DNA of 32,017 bases from the IMG/VR virus record IMGVR_UViG_3300033571_000946, positions 1-32,017 of that record; one strand, written 5' to 3'. Shown here piece by piece: positions 16,718 through 32,017 of the stretch; position 1 is the stretch's first letter; each line of letters starts with the position of its first letter. A program made the position numbers and the translations under genes. This stretch comes from a virus. Under the pieces are notes generated by a model, which made no database searches, was not told the DNA's origin, and saw only the letters and a program-made list of their open reading frames with translations.

Positions 16718-17322
16718 TACGCGAACCTAACTCTACGGAATGGCGATACTAGCGCCTGAACATCTGGGTCAATTCGACTAATTCTCATTACGCCTAGATC
16801 GCCAACACCAGCGACACCTAGCGGTGAATCGTAGCGCTTGAACTGGCGCTGGGCAAGCATAAGGGTTGCCTGCTTGATTGCGATAGGAACTGCTGACCAA
16901 CCAAATGTTCCGACAATCTCGACAGTCGCTTCGCCACCGAAGACAGGGAATAGGAAATCGTCAATGGCGCGAATCTGTGTGTAAGGTGTGACGATACCGC
17001 CAGCTCGCCCGTTCAATGGCTCTAGTTGATAGTCGGTACTTGCCCAAGTCGTATCAAAGCCTTCGCCGTCTGAAGAAGTTTTGATGGTGGTAATAGAAAT
17101 GATGTCATCTGTCTCACAAACATAACTATCGTTCGGCACAAACACGCGTGTCACAGCGGTCCCACCCGTGCTGTAAAACACACGCTCGCAGAAACCATCG
17201 AGCTGGCGTGAGGCAGCTTCGATAGAAGTTTCTAGTAAAGCGTCATCGACAGTATCCTGCGCTGGTATGCGCATTACTGCTTTGAGTTCGCTTAGGCTGG
17301 CGTAACCATTAGTTATTGCCAT
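16717..17322 (-). CDS. Head-tail connector / adaptor protein, HK97 gp6-like (201 aa)
   Basis: The N-terminus reads YASLSELKAVMRIP, with helices containing LLETSIEAASRQLDGFCERVF. The C-terminal part ends with a helix and basic residues. This is the DNA-packaging adaptor family (gp6/gp15-like) that forms a ring under the portal. It resumes the normal head-to-tail order after the inserted sugar cassette, whose last gene overlaps its start by 14 bases. Confidence 0.82.
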   Translation of the reverse strand: MAITNGYASLSELKAVMRIPAQDTVDDALLETSIEAASRQLDGFCERVFYSTGGTAVTRVFVPNDSYVCETDDIISITTIKTSSDGEGFDTTWASTDYQLEPLNGRAGGIVTPYTQIRAIDDFLFPVFGGEATVEIVGTFGWSAVPIAIKQATLMLAQRQFKRYDSPLGVAGVGDLGVMRISRIDPDVQALVSPFRRVRFA

Positions 17323-18076
17323 TTTTCCTCACAAGTTCTTCGTTGTATTTTAGTAAAGCGTTAGTTGCGGTTGGCGTATTGCTACCTGTGTCAGCCCACT
17401 TAGCCCAAGCGTAAATGTCTTTCGGGATACATTTGCTGGTCGCGCCTCTACTGTCTTCGTAGATGAAACTCCAACCTAGTTCCATTCTAGGGTCATCGCC
17501 GTAGACGATCTCTCTAATGGTGTAGTAATCCACGCCGTTAGCCTCACACGCGTCAAATAGTTCCTGAGCCTGAAGCAGCTTGAAGAAGATCGCTCTATTC
17601 TCTGAGAGCTTTACTACCTCAGCTTCTTTGATTGTTAGCTGTCGGATGTTGATGTTGGAGTTGTAGATTGTGGCATAAAGGTTGATAACCTTCCTGCGGT
17701 CTTCAGGATCTCCGCCTAGAACTATGAAAGGTGGCTGGCTAACTTTAGATACTGAGTGGTTGATCGTCTCGCCGATGTATTCAGGCTGGAATACGATTCT
17801 TTTTTTGTATTTCTCTTTTAGGTAGTCAATGAATCCGACATTACAGGTACTCCTGATAACAAACAGCTTCGCATCCGTGTCTCGAATAACTGCCTCTACT
17901 TCTGAGCAATCCAGCTCTGTCCCGTTCCAAGGTGTTGGCACAGCAACAAAAACAAAGTCGCAACCAGTTAGATTTTCTGAGGGTCCAGCGTATTTGTCAA
18001 AGATCTTCGCTTCTGGAAACTGGCTAGACATATGCTTGCCCAGCACTCCGAAACCCGCTATACCGACACTAAACAT
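17309..18076 (-). CDS. Short UDP-sugar / nucleotide-sugar dehydrogenase-like protein (255 aa)
   Basis: An N-terminal NAD-binding site (VGIAGFGVLGKH, 4-15) is followed by VAVPTPW, FQPEYIGE (96-103) and EVVKLSENR (153-161). SKCIPKD (214-220) carries the catalytic cysteine C216 of the UDP-glucose/GDP-mannose dehydrogenase family. The protein stops soon after that motif, so the usual C-terminal substrate domain is missing (about 400 residues is normal). It may oxidise a sugar nucleotide, or act in a reduced form known from other phages. It is the last gene of the sugar cassette; GAGAAAGGAACGG precedes its ATG. Confidence 0.78.
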   Translation of the reverse strand: MFSVGIAGFGVLGKHMSSQFPEAKIFDKYAGPSENLTGCDFVFVAVPTPWNGTELDCSEVEAVIRDTDAKLFVIRSTCNVGFIDYLKEKYKKRIVFQPEYIGETINHSVSKVSQPPFIVLGGDPEDRRKVINLYATIYNSNINIRQLTIKEAEVVKLSENRAIFFKLLQAQELFDACEANGVDYYTIREIVYGDDPRMELGWSFIYEDSRGATSKCIPKDIYAWAKWADTGSNTPTATNALLKYNEELVRKNGNN

Positions 18077-18115
18077 AATTCCGTTCCTTTCTCTTTTGGT
18101 TTGAGCATACCCAGT

Positions 18116-18538
18116 CTATCGTCTGAAGGTCATACGCTCTTTGATTATTGTAGAACTAATTCCCTCTGTGTAAGGGATGTAAGCCAGCCCGATCCCGCGC
18201 TGGTCTAGCCAGTCTTGGGTAAAGCCCATTTGTTTGTAGTAATCCTTACGCGCCCAATCGGATCCGATAATAACCATGTCAGGATCTACGGCGAGTATGG
18301 CTGGCTTGCTATCAGCCCCACCGATGTTTGGTATAACTCTTTCAACAAAGCGACAGGACAATAGAACCTCGCGCCGATCTGCGAAAGAGATAACTGGTGG
18401 CTTGCCCTTATACGCCTCAATAAACTCATCTGTGTTTAGTGATACCACAACGCTTCCGAACTCAGCGCACCTAGCTAGAAACCGCGTATGACCTGCGTGA
18501 AATAGGTCAAAGGTTCCGCCTGTATAAACTAGTCCCAA
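18116..18538 (-). CDS. Cytidylyltransferase-like nucleotidyltransferase, TagD/HldE type (140 aa)
   Basis: The signature TGGTFDLFHAGH (H14-x-G-H17) at the N-terminus and ISSTIIKER at the C-terminus define the small cytidylyltransferase family (glycerol-3-phosphate cytidylyltransferase, ADP-heptose synthase half). It joins CTP or another nucleotide to a phosphorylated sugar or polyol. The size is right for a full domain. Its start overlaps the glycosyltransferase stop by 10 bases. It probably makes an activated donor for the neighbouring transferases. Confidence 0.87.
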   Translation of the reverse strand: MGLVYTGGTFDLFHAGHTRFLARCAEFGSVVVSLNTDEFIEAYKGKPPVISFADRREVLLSCRFVERVIPNIGGADSKPAILAVDPDMVIIGSDWARKDYYKQMGFTQDWLDQRGIGLAYIPYTEGISSTIIKERMTFRR

Positions 18539-19176
18539 CTGTTATCCCTTCTAACCTTTAGAGACCAGTTGCCCTCAGAGTAATCATCATTGACAACCTT
18601 AGTATTGAACAATCGGTTATTCGCTTGAAAGGTTTTGTTGTTTTTGTCTTGGTAGCCTGATTTGAGTGTAGAACTATTTTCATGGTGGATCTTAGCTTCT
18701 ATGTGGTTTATTACGAAGCCAGCATTTTCAATACGGCGCTGATAATCATCATCGTCAAAATACAGCGGGTAAAGTCTTTCATCATAAAGCCCTACTTCGG
18801 ATACCACTTTCTCACCGAGAACTATGGCTGACCAACTTGGCACTATGTCTAAAAAATTGAGCGTGTTTCTATTCGCGTCTTCCGCGATCTTCATTAGAGA
18901 CCCAGCCTCAAACCAAGCGTCATCGTTGATAAGCAACCAATACGGCGCGTGTGGCGTGGACTTGACGATTAGATTCCAAGCGCCAACTAGCCCTAACCCG
19001 TAGGGAACTTCTATGTGCCAAAGATTCTCCACGAGATCAGGTTTCTTTGGTTGCCAAGTTTTGGTGCCTGAGTTATTGACAATGACCAAGTCTTCAACTG
19101 GATAATCTATCGAGTCTAGTAATCTGTTAGCTAGATCGAAACGATTGAGTGTGGCGAAGCCAATAACAGGAATCAA
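18529..19176 (-). CDS. GT-A fold glycosyltransferase (215 aa)
   Basis: The protein starts with IPVIGFATLNRFDLANRLL, then VIVNNSG, and carries a metal/nucleotide-binding NDDAW motif (about 84-88) and a later acidic run YFDDDDY. These are features of family 2-like GT-A glycosyltransferases. A TTG start at 19176 is chosen because it forms a TTGA overlap with the upstream stop. An upstream ATG at 19218 would overlap the neighbour by 46 bases. The acceptor is unknown; the virion surface is one candidate. Confidence 0.82.
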   Translation of the reverse strand: MIPVIGFATLNRFDLANRLLDSIDYPVEDLVIVNNSGTKTWQPKKPDLVENLWHIEVPYGLGLVGAWNLIVKSTPHAPYWLLINDDAWFEAGSLMKIAEDANRNTLNFLDIVPSWSAIVLGEKVVSEVGLYDERLYPLYFDDDDYQRRIENAGFVINHIEAKIHHENSSTLKSGYQDKNNKTFQANNRLFNTKVVNDDYSEGNWSLKVRRDNSWD

Positions 19177-20366
19177 GCCAGTAGCCTGTTTAGAGTGGGC
19201 AGCCAATACTTCTGCCAAACATTCTCGACATCGAACTCTTTAGCGAAGTCAATAGATACCTGAGACACACCGCGTTCTTCAGCGTAGGCAAGCTCTAGTG
19301 CGTTTACGATTGACGGAATGTTCGGGGTCTGCCACCAAGCGTTCTGTCCACTATCCCAAGCTGGTGTGCCATCGACTACCCAACCATCTTCGCTGATTAG
19401 ATCCGCGCTCGCAGCCCAGTTAGAACCAATTACTCTAGTTCCGCAGGCTTGCGCTTCCATAGTTGGCACACCAAAGCCCTCGCCGTAAGAAGTTGCCAAC
19501 AGGACATCGAACGCCGTATAGAACGCTGCTAGATCCTTATGAGATAACCCAAAGCGGTAGTCGTTGGGATCGGGAAAGCAAACTGCGTCTTCTGGTATAC
19601 CCAAGCTCATTAGCAAACTGGGCAAGTTCCAACCGCCAGATCTGCCCAGCGGATCCGTGTGAAGATAAAGAACTGCGTCAGGGTGTTTTTTATGAAAGAT
19701 AGAGAACGCCATAATGTTCTCGCTGAAGGCTTTCCTATGAACCATACCGCTGGCTTTATTGGCAGCCACCATGCCCACCACAAACTTGTCTTTACTAGCC
19801 ATAAGATCGCGAGCGCTCTTGCCGTTAGACAGTTCATAAGTTGGCTTCATAACTTTGGTATCTATCGCGTGAGGAACATATTCACACTCGATCCCTAGTT
19901 TCTCAATCTGGCGCACTCCGTTAGGTGCCATCGCAATAGGCGTGACATTTGGCTTACGCAGAAACGCTTCGACTTCGGGTGGCATTGTCACATGGTCGAG
20001 AGGAACCCAAGCGCCGATCTTACGCAGCTTGTCATACTGCTTGGACTTCATAACCCAGACATCGTAAAGGCTGATAAACACATCACTTAGTTCGGGAAAC
20101 TTAGAGATAAACATTTGATGATCGTTCGGCGCGACATCGTTGCTGTAAAGATCTAACCCGCGAGGGAAATGTTTTACCTTGCCATATGGTGTCCTAATCG
20201 TGTTGATTGTTCCCTCTAACCCGTAGTTAGAAAGCATGGCTACTTCAGCACCATCGCGAACTAGGCGATCTACAAGAAGTTTCACTTGTTGCCCATAACC
20301 AGTTGGCGCATCATAGGAATTAGACCAGACACTTATTGCGCCTGTTAGTTTCTCTTTTTTATTCAT
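19173..20366 (-). CDS. GT-B fold glycosyltransferase, GT4-like (397 aa)
   Basis: The C-terminal half has the nucleotide-sugar site of GT4 enzymes: SYGEGFGVPTMEAQACGTRV, with the E-x7-E pair, followed by the S/A-rich turn. The N-terminal half includes GYGQQVKLLV, the usual glycine-rich acceptor loop. Full length is present. It is the first gene after the major capsid terminator, and heads the four-gene sugar cassette. Confidence 0.88.
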   Translation of the reverse strand: MNKKEKLTGAISVWSNSYDAPTGYGQQVKLLVDRLVRDGAEVAMLSNYGLEGTINTIRTPYGKVKHFPRGLDLYSNDVAPNDHQMFISKFPELSDVFISLYDVWVMKSKQYDKLRKIGAWVPLDHVTMPPEVEAFLRKPNVTPIAMAPNGVRQIEKLGIECEYVPHAIDTKVMKPTYELSNGKSARDLMASKDKFVVGMVAANKASGMVHRKAFSENIMAFSIFHKKHPDAVLYLHTDPLGRSGGWNLPSLLMSLGIPEDAVCFPDPNDYRFGLSHKDLAAFYTAFDVLLATSYGEGFGVPTMEAQACGTRVIGSNWAASADLISEDGWVVDGTPAWDSGQNAWWQTPNIPSIVNALELAYAEERGVSQVSIDFAKEFDVENVWQKYWLPTLNRLLA

Positions 20367-26606: not shown

Positions 26607-28130
26607 CTAAATAAAGAACTGCGGGATTGGTGGCAGTTCTTCCTTTTCGTGTGTTGTAAGCGCTCTGTCTAGAGCTATAATACCAGCTACGGCTGCGTCA
26701 ATCCTGCGCAAGCTGTGTCTGTGTTCTTTTACTATTCGTGGACCATAGTTGTCTATCTTTACTGCTGCGTTGCTAAGGTGTCGCGTAAGTAGCGGATCCC
26801 CATCGTGTTCTAGTTTTTGTTCCATAACATTTTCATAGAACTTCTGACACGCAGGAACCATACGCCTAACAGAAGTCGATGGCCACTCAACAATCGGCAC
26901 ACCTTTCTCCTGAAGAACTGCCATAGATCGTTGCCAACGGAACGGGTCGCACGCCACTTCGCGGGTCTTAGGATACTTCTGAACAAAGCTCAAAATCTCA
27001 TTCTCAACATCCAGCGTATCCACGCGCCAGTCCTCATTATCTGTCGGCTGCTTTTCCCATGCCTTCACCAAAAACAGATACGGCTTTTCAGTTTCATCTT
27101 TCGGAACCTGACAGCCTACGATCACAGTACAGTCTTGATTGAAAGAGCCATCGAATCCAAGGATGTATTCAGCATCGGGGTCAAGCTCTCGGCTGACAGC
27201 TAACGGCAACCAGCTGTCGGTTGGAAGCCATGAGTTTTGAGAGCTTACCCATTGGTTACAGCGTTTGGTTCTAAATTCAGCTTCGGGCGTCCGCCGAGCC
27301 ATAGCTACAAAATCTTCCTCGGCGTTCAGATCCCCAAATGCGGGATTAGCTTTCGCCCATGTTTTAGGATCTTGGTATGGCGCTTCCTGTGGCGCTTCCC
27401 ACCAAGCCATAAAGAAAGACGGATCCTCAACTTCTTTCCGCGCTACGCGCTGCCCATACTGATACAAGCTATACGCAGTTGAGTCTTGCCCCGTGCTATC
27501 TGTCTTTACGCCAGCGGTGGTAATCGAAAGCAACATCGGCTCACGCCTAGCACCCATACCCAGAGCCATAACATCAAACAACTCACGATTAGGGGTGGCA
27601 TGAAGTTCATCAAACACTACGAAAGTTGGAGACAGTCCTTCCTTGGAGAAAGCCTCAGCTGATAGAACGCGATAGATCGAACCTGTGCTTACTACCTCTA
27701 TGGCATCTCGGTAAAGCTTGGTCATTTCCATTAGGTCTGGATTGTTTTCAACCATGCGCTTTGCGTCAGAGAACACGATACGAGCCTGTTCTTTTTCAGC
27801 AGCGCAAGAATAAACTTCGCCACCATTATCCCCAAGGTATAGCGACCATAGCGCCAGCGAGGATCCCAGCGCGCTCTTGCCATTTTTACGAGGCATTCCG
27901 ACCAAGGCTGTACGATGAAGAAGTTTGCCATCCTCATCCTCAGCGAATAGATCCCTAATGAGTTCCCGTTGCCAGTCTCTAAGGATAAGCGAATTACCTG
28001 CCTTACCTGCGATGGTGTCTTTTGTTTGAAGTCCGTATTCTTCTATGAAAGCCATAATCTGTTCCGACCTGCTGGCTTCGTGCTCATGTCTGGTTACAGG
28101 GGTAATCCAGCGCGGTGGATAACTACTCAT
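26607..28130 (-). CDS. terL: Terminase large subunit (507 aa)
   Basis: The ATPase domain has Walker A GMPRKNGKSA (78-87), Walker B FVVFDELH (170-177), and coupling motif SITTAG (202-207). The nuclease domain starts with the conserved aspartate in GFDGSF (D327) and has CDPFRW further on and RIDAAVAG near the end. It cuts and pumps DNA into the prohead. It overlaps the small subunit gene by 8 bases. The full length is kept. Confidence 0.96.
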   Translation of the reverse strand: MSSYPPRWITPVTRHEHEASRSEQIMAFIEEYGLQTKDTIAGKAGNSLILRDWQRELIRDLFAEDEDGKLLHRTALVGMPRKNGKSALGSSLALWSLYLGDNGGEVYSCAAEKEQARIVFSDAKRMVENNPDLMEMTKLYRDAIEVVSTGSIYRVLSAEAFSKEGLSPTFVVFDELHATPNRELFDVMALGMGARREPMLLSITTAGVKTDSTGQDSTAYSLYQYGQRVARKEVEDPSFFMAWWEAPQEAPYQDPKTWAKANPAFGDLNAEEDFVAMARRTPEAEFRTKRCNQWVSSQNSWLPTDSWLPLAVSRELDPDAEYILGFDGSFNQDCTVIVGCQVPKDETEKPYLFLVKAWEKQPTDNEDWRVDTLDVENEILSFVQKYPKTREVACDPFRWQRSMAVLQEKGVPIVEWPSTSVRRMVPACQKFYENVMEQKLEHDGDPLLTRHLSNAAVKIDNYGPRIVKEHRHSLRRIDAAVAGIIALDRALTTHEKEELPPIPQFFI

Positions 28131-28569
28131 TTCTCATAGACCTTAGCTCGGCAAGCTTGCTCAACTTCTTTACCTCAGCCACACCGAGGCGTGAACGATC
28201 CGCAGGAGTTAGTCCTAGCGAAGCCAGTTGGCTTTGGATTGCGCGGTCAAGATCTCTAAGCGCTCGGCGATCCCGCGCCTGCCCCTCGGTCATAACTCTT
28301 ACGCGCAAGTTCCAGCGCTCGTCAATCATTTCCGCCGTCATTAGCATTGTCTCGTAGTCGGTGTTAGAACTTATCCAAGAAGATCCCATCGCCCAAACTC
28401 GATCCCAGAATTGTTTACCATGTGAGCCAAGCGGTCTAGTAGTCTCTGGTATTTCAGTAATCATCGGCAACGCGACAATAGTTTTTTCATTAGGTAGCGC
28501 GCGCTTTCCTGGGTTTCCGAGAGCGCGTTTGACCTCTGTTGGTTTAGGTGGTCTGCCAGCTCTAGACAT
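28123..28569 (-). CDS. terS: Terminase small subunit, P27-like (148 aa)
   Basis: The start GRPPKPTEVKRALGNPGKRA and the following helix-rich core with FWDRVW and a basic C-terminal helix fit the P27/phage HK97-type small terminase family that recognises the packaging site. It directly precedes terL with an 8-base overlap. Its start overlaps the glycosyltransferase stop by 8 bases, so it is cotranscribed with the DNA-modification module. Confidence 0.87.
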   Translation of the reverse strand: MSRAGRPPKPTEVKRALGNPGKRALPNEKTIVALPMITEIPETTRPLGSHGKQFWDRVWAMGSSWISSNTDYETMLMTAEMIDERWNLRVRVMTEGQARDRRALRDLDRAIQSQLASLGLTPADRSRLGVAEVKKLSKLAELRSMRNE

Positions 28570-29317
28570 CTCTTAGTTTGATTTCTCGGTATCCGCTGTC
28601 ACGCTTCTTTTTTTCAACTACGAACTCAGGGTATGTTGCCAACAAGTATTCTGTTCCCTGTTCGTTCATAGCCAATCGGTCTAATGATTGAAGTCCGCCT
28701 CGGTTGCCTGACTTACCATCGCCGACTTTACCAGCCAGCGTAGTTAGATCCTCAAACCGCAAGACGATACCATCGCTGAGAAAGCGCAAGATTGCGCGCT
28801 CGTAATCGGACTTAGTTTCTGCGTTCAATAATTCTTCTTTGCGGTTATACAGCCCGTAGAACTGACCGCTGATAAAGGACAAGCCGTATCGCTCTCTTGG
28901 CTTCATAAAGAAAGGATTACTAACAGGATAGAAACCCCAAAGAGTCGCGCCTACTTCATCAGCTTTCCAGAAGCAGTCTCGTATCAGCTCATCTAAGTCA
29001 TCTACGCGCGTAAGTGTTTTAGGATCGGTGGCTTTGGCTATTTGGCGCACATCATCGTCAGCGTGAACCAGCGGTGTTCCCTCTGGATAGAACTGGCTGA
29101 TCGCGTTTCGGTTAGCTCTGAGACCAACAGTTGTCGAAACTAATTCCTCGTATAAGCCAGCGTCAGTATTCTGCTCATAAGCAGCGACCTGATCTGGGGC
29201 AACAAAGACGCGGATCTTTTCTTTTGGGATCCCTGTGTCAGCCAGATACCGAAGTGTGTGTTGGTTTATTTCATTACTGCGGTCATGCGATGGTATGGCA
29301 ATTTCGTAATCTAACAT
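28562..29317 (-). CDS. TET/JBP-associated glycosyltransferase (TAGT-like, 251 aa)
   Basis: A GT-A-like order is visible: YEIAIPSHDRS at the start, then KIRVFVAPDQ, GLRANRNAIS, and the metal site HADDD (85-89), followed by a large catalytic half. Known phage operons pair such enzymes with TET/JBP dioxygenases, where they attach sugars to hydroxymethylated bases in DNA. Here it directly follows the dioxygenase gene with a 24-base gap and overlaps terS, supporting a role in modifying packaged DNA. The sugar donor is unknown. The alternative, a virion glycosyltransferase, is less likely from context. Confidence 0.8.
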   Translation of the reverse strand: MLDYEIAIPSHDRSNEINQHTLRYLADTGIPKEKIRVFVAPDQVAAYEQNTDAGLYEELVSTTVGLRANRNAISQFYPEGTPLVHADDDVRQIAKATDPKTLTRVDDLDELIRDCFWKADEVGATLWGFYPVSNPFFMKPRERYGLSFISGQFYGLYNRKEELLNAETKSDYERAILRFLSDGIVLRFEDLTTLAGKVGDGKSGNRGGLQSLDRLAMNEQGTEYLLATYPEFVVEKKKRDSGYREIKLRDV

Positions 29318-29341
29318 AATTCACTCTCTTTTACTTTACTG

Positions 29342-30229
29342 CTAGTCGATAATTCTAGTATCCCCATTAGATCTGCCATTAGGGATCTTAGCCATAGCTG
29401 CTTCGATCGAAAGATCAGTCATGCCTTCTTCGCGACCCTGTCGGCGCTTACGAGCTTCGCCAACTTCAACTGCGTAGGTGTGGCAGTCTTTCATTCCGCG
29501 CTTGGCATAGAAGACGATCGAGTAGCGGTAGCCATCTTTGGCGCGCGCTTTCATTGGCGTTACACCATGAACATAGGCATAGCCATTGAACCAAAGCGCC
29601 CAGCCATCGCGACAGTTGATTGTAATTCCATACTCAGGCATATGTAGGTGTCCACCATCCATACCCCTACGGACAACAGGCATAGCTGACCAAGTATCAA
29701 AATTAGATCCGTCTCGGTGATAAGGCAACGCGGAAGCTTGGTTGATAACACCAGAAGTCCAAAGTGCGTCTTCGGTCATGCGCCACTCTGGCAACACTTG
29801 TTCTACTTCTGCCTTATCGTGAAGAAAGACTTCAGGTAGTTCTTGTTTTAGGTAATCGCCCAACACTTCTGCGGTTGTGTTTAGTGTCATTTGAGCGTCT
29901 GGTGATTCCCAAGCCAACGATGTCGGCGTACACGCTTCGCGCTGAAGAACTGCGGATCGGTTAGTGAACCCGAATGTTCTTGACGCGTTTCTAGTTCCGC
30001 TCGCGCGCAAGGTGGTCGAATAGTTTGTTCCTAGAACTGCTTGGCGTAATGGCGTAATCTGCGCTGGGTATGGCGCGTAGATCAAAATAGCTTCGCCTGT
30101 TGCCCTGTCGCGGTAAAGACCTGCCTCGTTCACATTTGGTTCGCTCTCAGCAACAGTTACACCAACAACTTTGTCAGCTTCATCTTTTGTTAGAACGCGG
30201 TCAATTAGAAACTCTGGCAGATTACCCAT
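29342..30229 (-). CDS. TET/JBP-family 2-oxoglutarate/Fe(II) DNA dioxygenase (295 aa)
   Basis: The core has the expected metal and cosubstrate residues in the order of the phage TET/JBP family: H171-R-D173 (YHRDGSN), H221 in YVHGVTP, and R235 in YRYSIVFY. GYAYVHG and the preceding GITINCRDGW give the double-stranded beta helix. Members oxidise the methyl group of 5-methylcytosine or thymine in DNA. The neighbours are a ParB-like gene (8-base overlap) and a TAGT-like glycosyltransferase. No cytosine methyltransferase is encoded, so the base it acts on is uncertain. Confidence 0.86.
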   Translation of the reverse strand: MGNLPEFLIDRVLTKDEADKVVGVTVAESEPNVNEAGLYRDRATGEAILIYAPYPAQITPLRQAVLGTNYSTTLRASGTRNASRTFGFTNRSAVLQREACTPTSLAWESPDAQMTLNTTAEVLGDYLKQELPEVFLHDKAEVEQVLPEWRMTEDALWTSGVINQASALPYHRDGSNFDTWSAMPVVRRGMDGGHLHMPEYGITINCRDGWALWFNGYAYVHGVTPMKARAKDGYRYSIVFYAKRGMKDCHTYAVEVGEARKRRQGREEGMTDLSIEAAMAKIPNGRSNGDTRIID

Positions 30230-30920
30230 TATTCAATTCCTTATCTATCAACGCTTGGACAGTTTCCGCGTTGTCTTTCGTGCCGAACTTTTCAGCAACG
30301 ATCTTTAGGTTCTCTACCATTTTACCATAGTCTTCATTTGGATAATAAAGAATGATGGCGCGCACAGCGCGGTTCGCATAACGCTCTAGAAACTCAGCGT
30401 AAGTAGAATCTTTTTTTACTTTGGTCTCAGCATCAACTTGTGATGTTCCGCCATCTGCGTCTCTTAGTCCACCATCCATTTGTGCGATTGCTGGTGAGGT
30501 CATTTGGTGTTCGTCTAGTAGTGCGCGAAAGTCTTCAACATCAGCCTCGGTAAAGCCAACTGTGTCGATCGAATCTAGTCCGATCTCATCAAGCGCAAGC
30601 ACAAGTTCTTCAACATTCCACTCACCAAGCTGACCGATACGATTGTCTGCCACGCCGTAGGCAATCGCGGTTTCCTTATCGTCATCCACAAAGACAACTG
30701 CCATCTCAGTCCAGCCAAGATCCTTAGCTGCTAGATACTGGTGGTTGCCAGCGATAATTTCGCCAGTAGATCTCAGCGCAACGATTGGCTTACGCTGACC
30801 AAAGCGCTCGTAAGATTTTTTGATCGACTCAACATCACCCTTACGCGGGTTATGCGTAGCTGGTTTGAGCTTGCTTATCGGTTGAATCAGGGGTTCTAGG
30901 TCTTTGGCGATTTGTGCCAT
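30222..30920 (-). CDS. ParB/Srx-fold nuclease-like protein (232 aa)
   Basis: The ParB-like domain spans about 12-80: NPRKGD, then FGQRKPIV and EIIAGNHQYLAAKDLGW. This is followed by ADNRIGQLGEW (about 96-106), a segment usually seen where a ParB domain is joined to a DNA methylase. The methylase itself is absent; the last 70 residues form a small helical domain with ILYYPNEDYGKM. It may direct the modifying enzymes to DNA or nick it; its CTP/nuclease activity is untested. It is the first gene of the modification module, with AGAGAGG before its ATG. Confidence 0.85.
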   Translation of the reverse strand: MAQIAKDLEPLIQPISKLKPATHNPRKGDVESIKKSYERFGQRKPIVALRSTGEIIAGNHQYLAAKDLGWTEMAVVFVDDDKETAIAYGVADNRIGQLGEWNVEELVLALDEIGLDSIDTVGFTEADVEDFRALLDEHQMTSPAIAQMDGGLRDADGGTSQVDAETKVKKDSTYAEFLERYANRAVRAIILYYPNEDYGKMVENLKIVAEKFGTKDNAETVQALIDKELNNG

Positions 30921-31085: not shown

Positions 31086-31433
31086 CTAGGGCTTCAGGTC
31101 TAAGGGTTTATTCCCTCTACGACTGTTACAGGATCTATGTGCTGGCATGAGAGCGCTTGTCGGATCACCAGCGATAACATGGTCAGCTGTCCAAGGGTCA
31201 TTGTGTCTCGGTCCATCACCACAGAGATAACAGTACTGGGCGTTCTGTCTAACCTGTCTTGCTCGCTTGGTATAGTCACCCTCATAGTGGGGTCTACGGG
31301 GCTTGTTAGGTCTTTGTCTGTTTGCTCGTAAAGCCTCACGGATTCTGATTCTCTCTAGCCTATGTTCCTCACACCTACTATCACCGAGGGATAGTCTTCC
31401 GCACTCTATACATGGTTTCGGAAACCCAGCCAT
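31086..31433 (-). CDS. HNH endonuclease (115 aa)
   Basis: CYLCGDG (about 70-76) is followed by DPWTADHVIAGDPTSALMPA and HRSCNSRRGN, the Cys-pair plus D-H...N...H layout of HNH nucleases. The N-terminus carries a second Cys/His cluster (CIECGRLSLGDSRCEEHR). HNH proteins encoded near terminase genes often help DNA cleavage at packaging; here the modification genes lie between. The start follows AGGGG. Confidence 0.87.
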   Translation of the reverse strand: MAGFPKPCIECGRLSLGDSRCEEHRLERIRIREALRANRQRPNKPRRPHYEGDYTKRARQVRQNAQYCYLCGDGPRHNDPWTADHVIAGDPTSALMPAHRSCNSRRGNKPLDLKP

Positions 31434-31614: not shown

Positions 31615-32017
31615 TAGAGCTTATACACAGTTCCGCTGAAGGGTTTGTCTGGATAGAGCAGGTATACCGCGAGTCCTGCGTCTGAGTCATCGCCAGCCTT
31701 GTTGCGATACCAGTCCGAACCATTGTCTAGCGTTGGTGCTTGAACCCACCATCGCGAGCGCCCATTCTTTCTGCCAGTCTCCATTATCCGTAGGTGGTGA
31801 TAGTGTCCTGTGTTTAGGATCGTGGCTTCGGCTACTGCTTGCTCACCATGCGATTGACCGCGCCACCAGTTGGGGATCTGTTCTGGTCTGTTAGCTTGGT
31901 GTCCATGCGCTAGTCCTAGTATCTCGTCATAGATCGGGATCGCCAAGCTCTCGTCATAAGGCTGTGGCTCAAAGAACTTTATTGGTTGTTTGGTTTCTTG
32001 CGCTAGTCGGGCGAGCT
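31614..32017 (-). CDS. Metallophosphoesterase, C-terminal part (continues into base 1 side)
   Basis: This is the 3' end of the gene whose start is at 805. The frame runs from the circular joint to TAA at 31616-31614 and carries LGLAHGH and GHYHH, the last metal-binding motifs, then a Trp-rich C-terminus. Bases 31931-32017 repeat the start of the window. Any start placed at TTG 31946 is an artefact of the cut. Confidence 0.88.
   Translation of the reverse strand, partial: LARLAQETKQPIKFFEPQPYDESLAIPIYDEILGLAHGHQANRPEQIPNWWRGQSHGEQAVAEATILNTGHYHHLRIMETGRKNGRSRWWVQAPTLDNGSDWYRNKAGDDSDAGLAVYLLYPDKPFSGTVYKL
31931..32017. repeat. Terminal direct identity, right copy
   Basis: These bases equal 1-87 exactly, so the unit genome ends at 31930. 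See the left copy for interpretation. Confidence 0.93.

Follow-up and report, generated by a model that had tools for sequence, protein, structure and literature searches.

The window analyzed here, the 32,017 nucleotides of IMG/VR virus record IMGVR_UViG_3300033571_000946, carries five minus-strand genes in close succession, which encode a ParB-like protein, a TET/JBP-type dioxygenase (TET), a glycosyltransferase (GT) and the small and large terminase subunits (terS and terL). Our results favor the reading that the first three form a post-replicative DNA hypermodification module, in which thymine would be converted to 5-hydroxymethyluracil (hmU) and then to glycosyl-hmU in the manner of base J, with the position between TET and terS serving as an exchange slot for decorating enzymes. 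We assign this reading a probability of about 0.68. ParB and TET, GT and terS, and terS and terL overlap by 8 bp each, and 24 bp separate TET from GT; the three closely spaced genes running into terS and terL were all recovered where the first-pass annotation had placed them. Since this gene order is kept in dozens of relatives, chance association is ruled out. The genome appears complete: positions 1-87 are repeated exactly at 31931..32017, joining the ends of the record yields a circle of 31,930 bp, and a split exonuclease gene is thereby restored to 374 aa. We therefore treat the absence of a gene as informative.

Profile and predicted structure agree that the 295-aa protein is a member of the TET/JBP family, and as such it would oxidize a 5-methylpyrimidine in DNA. 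It scores 39.0 bits on Pfam Tet_JBP (cut-off 34.9, E 6.2e-10), and the residues on which the earlier assignment had relied, three iron ligands of the HxD...H motif (H171, D173, H221) and an arginine that binds 2-oxoglutarate (R235), are invariant in 30 homologues. The solved structures closest to its AlphaFold2 model are NgTET1 (Z 13.3), TET2 (12.3) and CMD1 (12.2), followed by CcTET; the best solved TETs lie between Z 13.3 and 10.6, and other 2-oxoglutarate oxygenases score from 10.6 downward. Both analyses that the first-pass annotation had proposed for this protein thus place it inside TET/JBP, not outside. The function “queuine tRNA-ribosyltransferase”, given for phrog_6059 and in many GenBank records, was rejected because the match covers the TET protein, whose fold neighbors are TETs. 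When the TET of phage P12024L was compared with PDB sequences by phmmer, no matches were returned. Three residues past the HxD aspartate, N176 is invariant in the clade of the window and is also found in MED4-184; the TETs of P12024L, HTVC112P, DLP_6 and Cr30 have D at the equivalent position, a possible difference in base reading between clades. As a test of substrate this residue decides nothing, since NgTET1, with D at that position, and TET2, with N, both act on 5-methylcytosine (5mC).

The GT is TAGT-like in sequence and predicted fold, and we do not count it as a TAGT member. It matches phrog_842, beta-glucosyl-HMC-alpha-glucosyltransferase, at 3.1e-7, and its model has a GT-A fold (mean pLDDT 88.5, Z 15.5), with many TAGT-domain proteins among the nearest viral models (TM about 0.7 to 0.9). 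On these two grounds the TAGT-like designation made from the sequence was retained, despite a Pfam score below the cut-off. Residues D88, D89, D171 and R214 are invariant in 23 relatives, and the same-slot transferase of one relative, L022, reaches 29.4 bits on Pfam TAGT. A study of T4 describes TAGT as a GT-A enzyme and reports that, out of 753 phage genomes, 288 encode a TAGT and lack alpha- and beta-GT, possibly representing novel transferases (PMC13216743). The GT of the window appears to be of this same sort.

The most probable substrate of the TET is thymine, an assignment that we hold with fair confidence on the basis of gene content and neighborhood. The complete genome of the window has no match to C5-cytosine methyltransferase (PF00145) or to thymidylate-synthase-type hydroxymethylase (PF00303). 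A C5-methyltransferase occurs in 2 of 43 IMG/VR relatives, many of the 43 being fragments; in both (L017, 72-620; L038, 386-751) the match lies near the end of the contig and far from the TET. PF00145 was likewise found in none of 18 annotated TET phages. However, annotated non-actinobacterial TET phages, which served as positive control, lack PF00145, so that its absence alone cannot separate thymine from 5mC. The neighbors of related TETs are what point to thymine. No Ploopntkinase3 gene is present in the genome of the window, but such a gene follows orthologous TETs (72-74% identical) that occupy the same ParB-TET-x-terS place in four relatives (L017, L018, L020, L021). In actinobacteriophages whose TETs are 41-47% identical the slot may hold Ploopntkinase3 together with an amino-acid:DNA transferase (ADDT). 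In Rhodococcus phage Tonitrus this kinase and ADDT set has been described as a system for thymidine hypermodification that includes a 5-hmU DNA kinase (PMC11955845), and the TET of phage Prince is annotated as a thymidine hydroxylase. The kinase and ADDT neighbors of orthologous TETs thus argue for thymine by association, which is not proof. The gene identities and the general idea of hypermodification put forward in the first-pass annotation are consistent with these data, whereas the described route through a C5-methyltransferase and cytosine is here considered less likely than one through thymine.

Between TET and terS lies an exchange slot, in which genes for predicted decorating enzymes are swapped at gene boundaries while TET is kept. 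Among relatives the slot contains a transferase of the window type, another type of transferase, a transferase together with an epimerase that is NAD-dependent, an array of three or four mostly transferase genes, a kinase, or nothing (L026-L028, L030-L032). The clearest case is the pair L034 and L003, in which ParB, TET, terS and terL are 98%, 97%, 98% and 97% identical as proteins and the slot transferases only 32%, against a shuffled baseline of 22%. Their DNA is 90.3% identical on the TET side, where similarity stops at the end of TET, 17 bases into the transferase gene, and 92.5% identical on the other side, where it resumes at the start of terS. The same pattern is seen between L009 and L011, with flanks 85.2% identical on either side, and between phages Nigel and Prince (flanks 87.5% and 89.2%) a gene of the ADDT family has been inserted just after TET. 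When the ten states of the slot are mapped on the TET tree, 18 changes are required against a minimum of 9, and 4 for the window type of transferase alone; weak inner branches and long rows make the change count soft and leave the pairwise breakpoints unaffected. Annotated actinobacteriophages already show the order ParB-TET-decoration, and modules of TET and transferase are known; boundary-precise swapping of the slot among near-identical phages, together with a matching empty site, was not described in the literature we searched.

The slot arrays of L022 (1643-4963), L024 (1615-4859) and L025 (10844-13288) comprise three or four genes each, most of them TAGT-like paralogues in tandem, and similar arrays are present in L029, L033, L035, L036, L039 and L043. 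Several of them are preceded by a protein of 242-243 aa that has no Pfam match. Such arrays of transferases could build an oligosaccharide stepwise on DNA.

A ParB-like gene precedes TET in all IMG/VR relatives with a long enough locus and in most annotated relatives, and it stays directly before TET even where the rest of the module differs; this constant pairing suggests that the ParB-like protein assists the TET. ParB_N is the sole Pfam domain that it matches, at a weak level (20.6 bits, under the cut-off of 26.3), and in the window, as in relatives, the residues GNHQ stand where the Noc/ParB match carries GERR. By the criterion of this missing motif the protein is not a canonical CTP-clamp ParB. 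The label “ParB-like” therefore holds as membership in a phage family (phrog_620), but it should not be read as naming a partition protein. In two distant TET phages, the cyanophage MED4-184 (L056:3260-5384) and the pelagiphage HTVC112P (L057:3895-6117), a ParB_N protein lies near TET and an FkbM-type methyltransferase beside it, which suggests decoration by O-methylation; the “DNA methylase” of MED4-184 is a ParB_N match only.

By terminase and capsid, the nearest isolated genome is that of Pontimonas phage phiPsal1 (MG835450; circular, 31,069 bp), which came to light as a low-level contig when Pontimonas salivibrio, a marine strain of the Microbacteriaceae, was sequenced (PMC6106888). Its genome is like that of the window in size and plan, with 58.5% identity in terL and 60-61% in the major capsid protein, but ParB, TET and GT have no match in it, and an N6 DNA methylase is encoded elsewhere in its genome. 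The HNH-like gene that borders the module in the window is 47% identical to phiPsal1 30533-30838; in phiPsal1 this gene adjoins terS, with only two annotated genes of less than 60 aa and the start of the record between them, whereas in the window ParB-TET-GT lies between these two genes. This empty site indicates that the three genes are gained or lost together. Kinship with phiPsal1 also suggests an aquatic actinobacterial host, and we infer that the window represents a small phage of siphovirus type that infects aquatic actinobacteria. A scan of a genome collection for hosts returned a single Brevibacterium locus.

We propose the following course of events. The ParB-like protein would recruit the TET to phage DNA, or aid its action along the DNA, after which the TET, as its family and residues would allow, may hydroxylate thymine at its 5-methyl group and so form hmU. 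To this hydroxymethyl group the GT, if its predicted fold is a guide, would add a sugar from a host nucleotide-sugar, yielding glycosyl-hmU. Because the module shares an overlapping run with terS and terL, modification would take place late, before or during packaging, and it would protect the DNA from host nucleases. Swapping in the slot would change the decoration and keep the oxidation step, and protection from host nucleases may be its selective reason. We give even odds to a wider claim, that TET yields base-J-like glycosyl-hmU in a lineage of small aquatic actinobacterial phages in the absence of methyltransferase, kinase and hydroxymethylase, and that this lineage swaps unrelated decorations in a dedicated TET-terS slot under pressure from host nucleases that recognize decorations.

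Some caution is called for, as a number of points weigh against the reading of thymine glycosylation. We found no measurement of a modified base for the phage of the window or for relatives that bear the module. Confidence in the TET model is modest (mean pLDDT 63), the GT reaches 19.5 bits on Pfam TAGT (PF20691), under the cut-off of 27.5, and the sugar and acceptor base named above are presumed ones. The role of the ParB-like protein in the module is guesswork, and the substrate of Ploopntkinase3 is taken from annotation and literature. TAGTs of assigned reaction act on glucosylated hydroxymethylcytosine, the T6-type enzyme extending glucosylated cytosine (PMC13216743), and the host may supply 5mC, which would allow cytosine as the substrate. 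These last two points bear on a cytosine route, in which the TET would oxidize 5mC that a methyltransferase of the host had made and the GT would glycosylate the resulting 5-hydroxymethylcytosine (hmC). Such a route has precedent, in that phage TET pathways are described as a C5-methyltransferase, a TET and glycosyltransferases that lead to glycosylated cytosine (PMC12730594, which cites Burke et al. 2021), and the C5-methyltransferases on the contigs of L017 and L038 would fit it. Set against this are the lack of such an enzyme in the window, in 41 of the 43 relatives (many of them fragments) and in the 18 annotated TET phages, as well as the position of orthologous TETs next to kinase and ADDT genes, which have been linked to hmU, and we regard the cytosine route as unlikely.

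Two further explanations concern the purpose of the modification and the target of the GT. The tight overlap with terS and terL, and the conservation of this neighborhood in relatives, could mean that only a few bases are modified under guidance of ParB, for instance at the packaging site, so that the terminase recognizes phage DNA. phiPsal1 has the same plan and homologous terS and terL and lacks the module, and a decorating enzyme that has been replaced repeatedly is easier to reconcile with escape from recognition by the host than with a fixed signal; a packaging mark is improbable in our view. Alternatively, the GT might act on a target other than DNA, such as the capsid or a host glycan, and the product of the TET would then stay a plain 5-hydroxymethylpyrimidine. 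The relatives with a TET and an empty slot would be explained in this way, and a second group of sugar genes does lie beside the capsid gene of the window. However, the slot is found beside TET throughout, the viral fold neighbors of the GT include DNA-sugar transferases as well as TAGT-domain proteins, and phiPsal1, which has no TET, keeps the capsid-side transferases and has no slot transferase. We consider a non-DNA target the least probable of these alternatives, and a very improbable one.

This second group (17309-20366, between the major capsid and head-tail connector genes) consists of a group 1 glycosyltransferase, a galactosyltransferase-like, a cytidylyltransferase-like and a UDP-glucose-dehydrogenase-like gene; the N-terminal Pfam match of the last begins only at profile position 72. 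We did not take these genes to be part of the DNA pathway, since phiPsal1 shares two of the transferases and has no TET, which makes glycosylation of the capsid more likely than modification of DNA. A small protein at 2777-3088 matches a PHROG “ocr-like anti-restriction” family (2.4e-8) and is a second possible counter-defense gene. The base composition of the window gave no interpretable signature, and a scan for promoters and terminators gave a lower number of sites than shuffled sequence did. The genes of the module and its borders are listed in Table 1.

Table 1. Module genes and bordering genes, with positions in the window.
Feature	Position	Strand	Basis and remarks
ParB_N-like protein, 232 aa	30222..30920	-	phrog_620 3.4e-32; first gene of module
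TET/JBP Fe(II)/2-oxoglutarate dioxygenase, 295 aa	29342..30229	-	Pfam PF12851, phrog_6059 3.9e-72
TAGT-like GT-A glycosyltransferase (predicted), 251 aa	28562..29317	-	phrog_842, predicted fold; position of the exchange slot
Terminase small subunit (terS)	28123..28569	-	Pfam Terminase_7 and Terminase_6 above cut-off; right-hand border of slot
Terminase large subunit (terL)	26607..28130	-	Pfam TerL_ATPase 1.3e-21, TerL_nuclease 1.8e-17
HNH-like nuclease gene	31086..31433	-	PHROG HNH matches, phiPsal1 homologue; left-hand border of module

If the thymine reading is correct, aquatic phages possess a minimal two-enzyme route to glycosylated thymine, and the slot offers a natural panel of transferases and partner enzymes for one oxidized base. 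The slot would also allow one to ask whether hosts recognize given DNA decorations and whether swapping lets phages escape. Such phages may also be under-sampled by metagenome methods that need unmodified DNA.

Among known systems, the modules of actinobacteriophages (Mycobacterium phages Nigel, Acadian, Indlovu and Prince, Gordonia phage CloverMinnie and Rhodococcus phage Tonitrus) resemble that of the window in combining a ParB-like protein, a TET of the 41-47% identity noted above and decorating enzymes near the terminase, and in Acadian and Indlovu a TAGT-like transferase follows TET as it does here. They differ in carrying Ploopntkinase3, ADDT or PIG-L deacetylase, where the phage of the window has the transferase alone, and in genome size (48-71 kb against 32 kb). 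The “terminase small subunit” genes of Acadian (L047:3022-3588), KayaCho (L060:1802-2377) and Nigel (L061:1786-2382) are near full-length Ploopntkinase3 matches, and this label is probably wrong, as is “queuine tRNA-ribosyltransferase” on their TETs. A PIG-L/glucosaminyl deacetylase gene follows the transferase in Acadian (L047:2438-3025), Altadena (L048:5472-6065) and Indlovu (L049:2470-3048); this pair would fit transfer of GlcNAc and its subsequent deacetylation, leaving positively charged glucosamine on DNA.

The synthesis of base J in kinetoplastids, by the thymine hydroxylases JBP1 and JBP2 and a glucosyltransferase, follows the same logic of oxidation by a TET/JBP enzyme and O-glycosylation of the hydroxymethyl group. 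In the window, unlike in that system, no JBP-specific DNA-binding or SNF2 domain was seen, the transferase is of the TAGT-like GT-A kind, and thymine is the presumed substrate. With the phage 5mC-TET pathway (Burke et al. 2021, as cited in PMC12730594) the module shares TET and transferase, but a C5-methyltransferase is missing from the window. The T-even locus of alpha-GT, beta-GT and TAGT likewise places sugar on a hydroxymethylated DNA base, as we propose here, and the syntenic positions of T4 beta-GT and T6 TAGT (PMC13390438) parallel the exchange slot of the lineage of the window. T-even phages, however, make hmC as a nucleotide before replication, whereas in the phage of the window the base would be oxidized within DNA by the TET.

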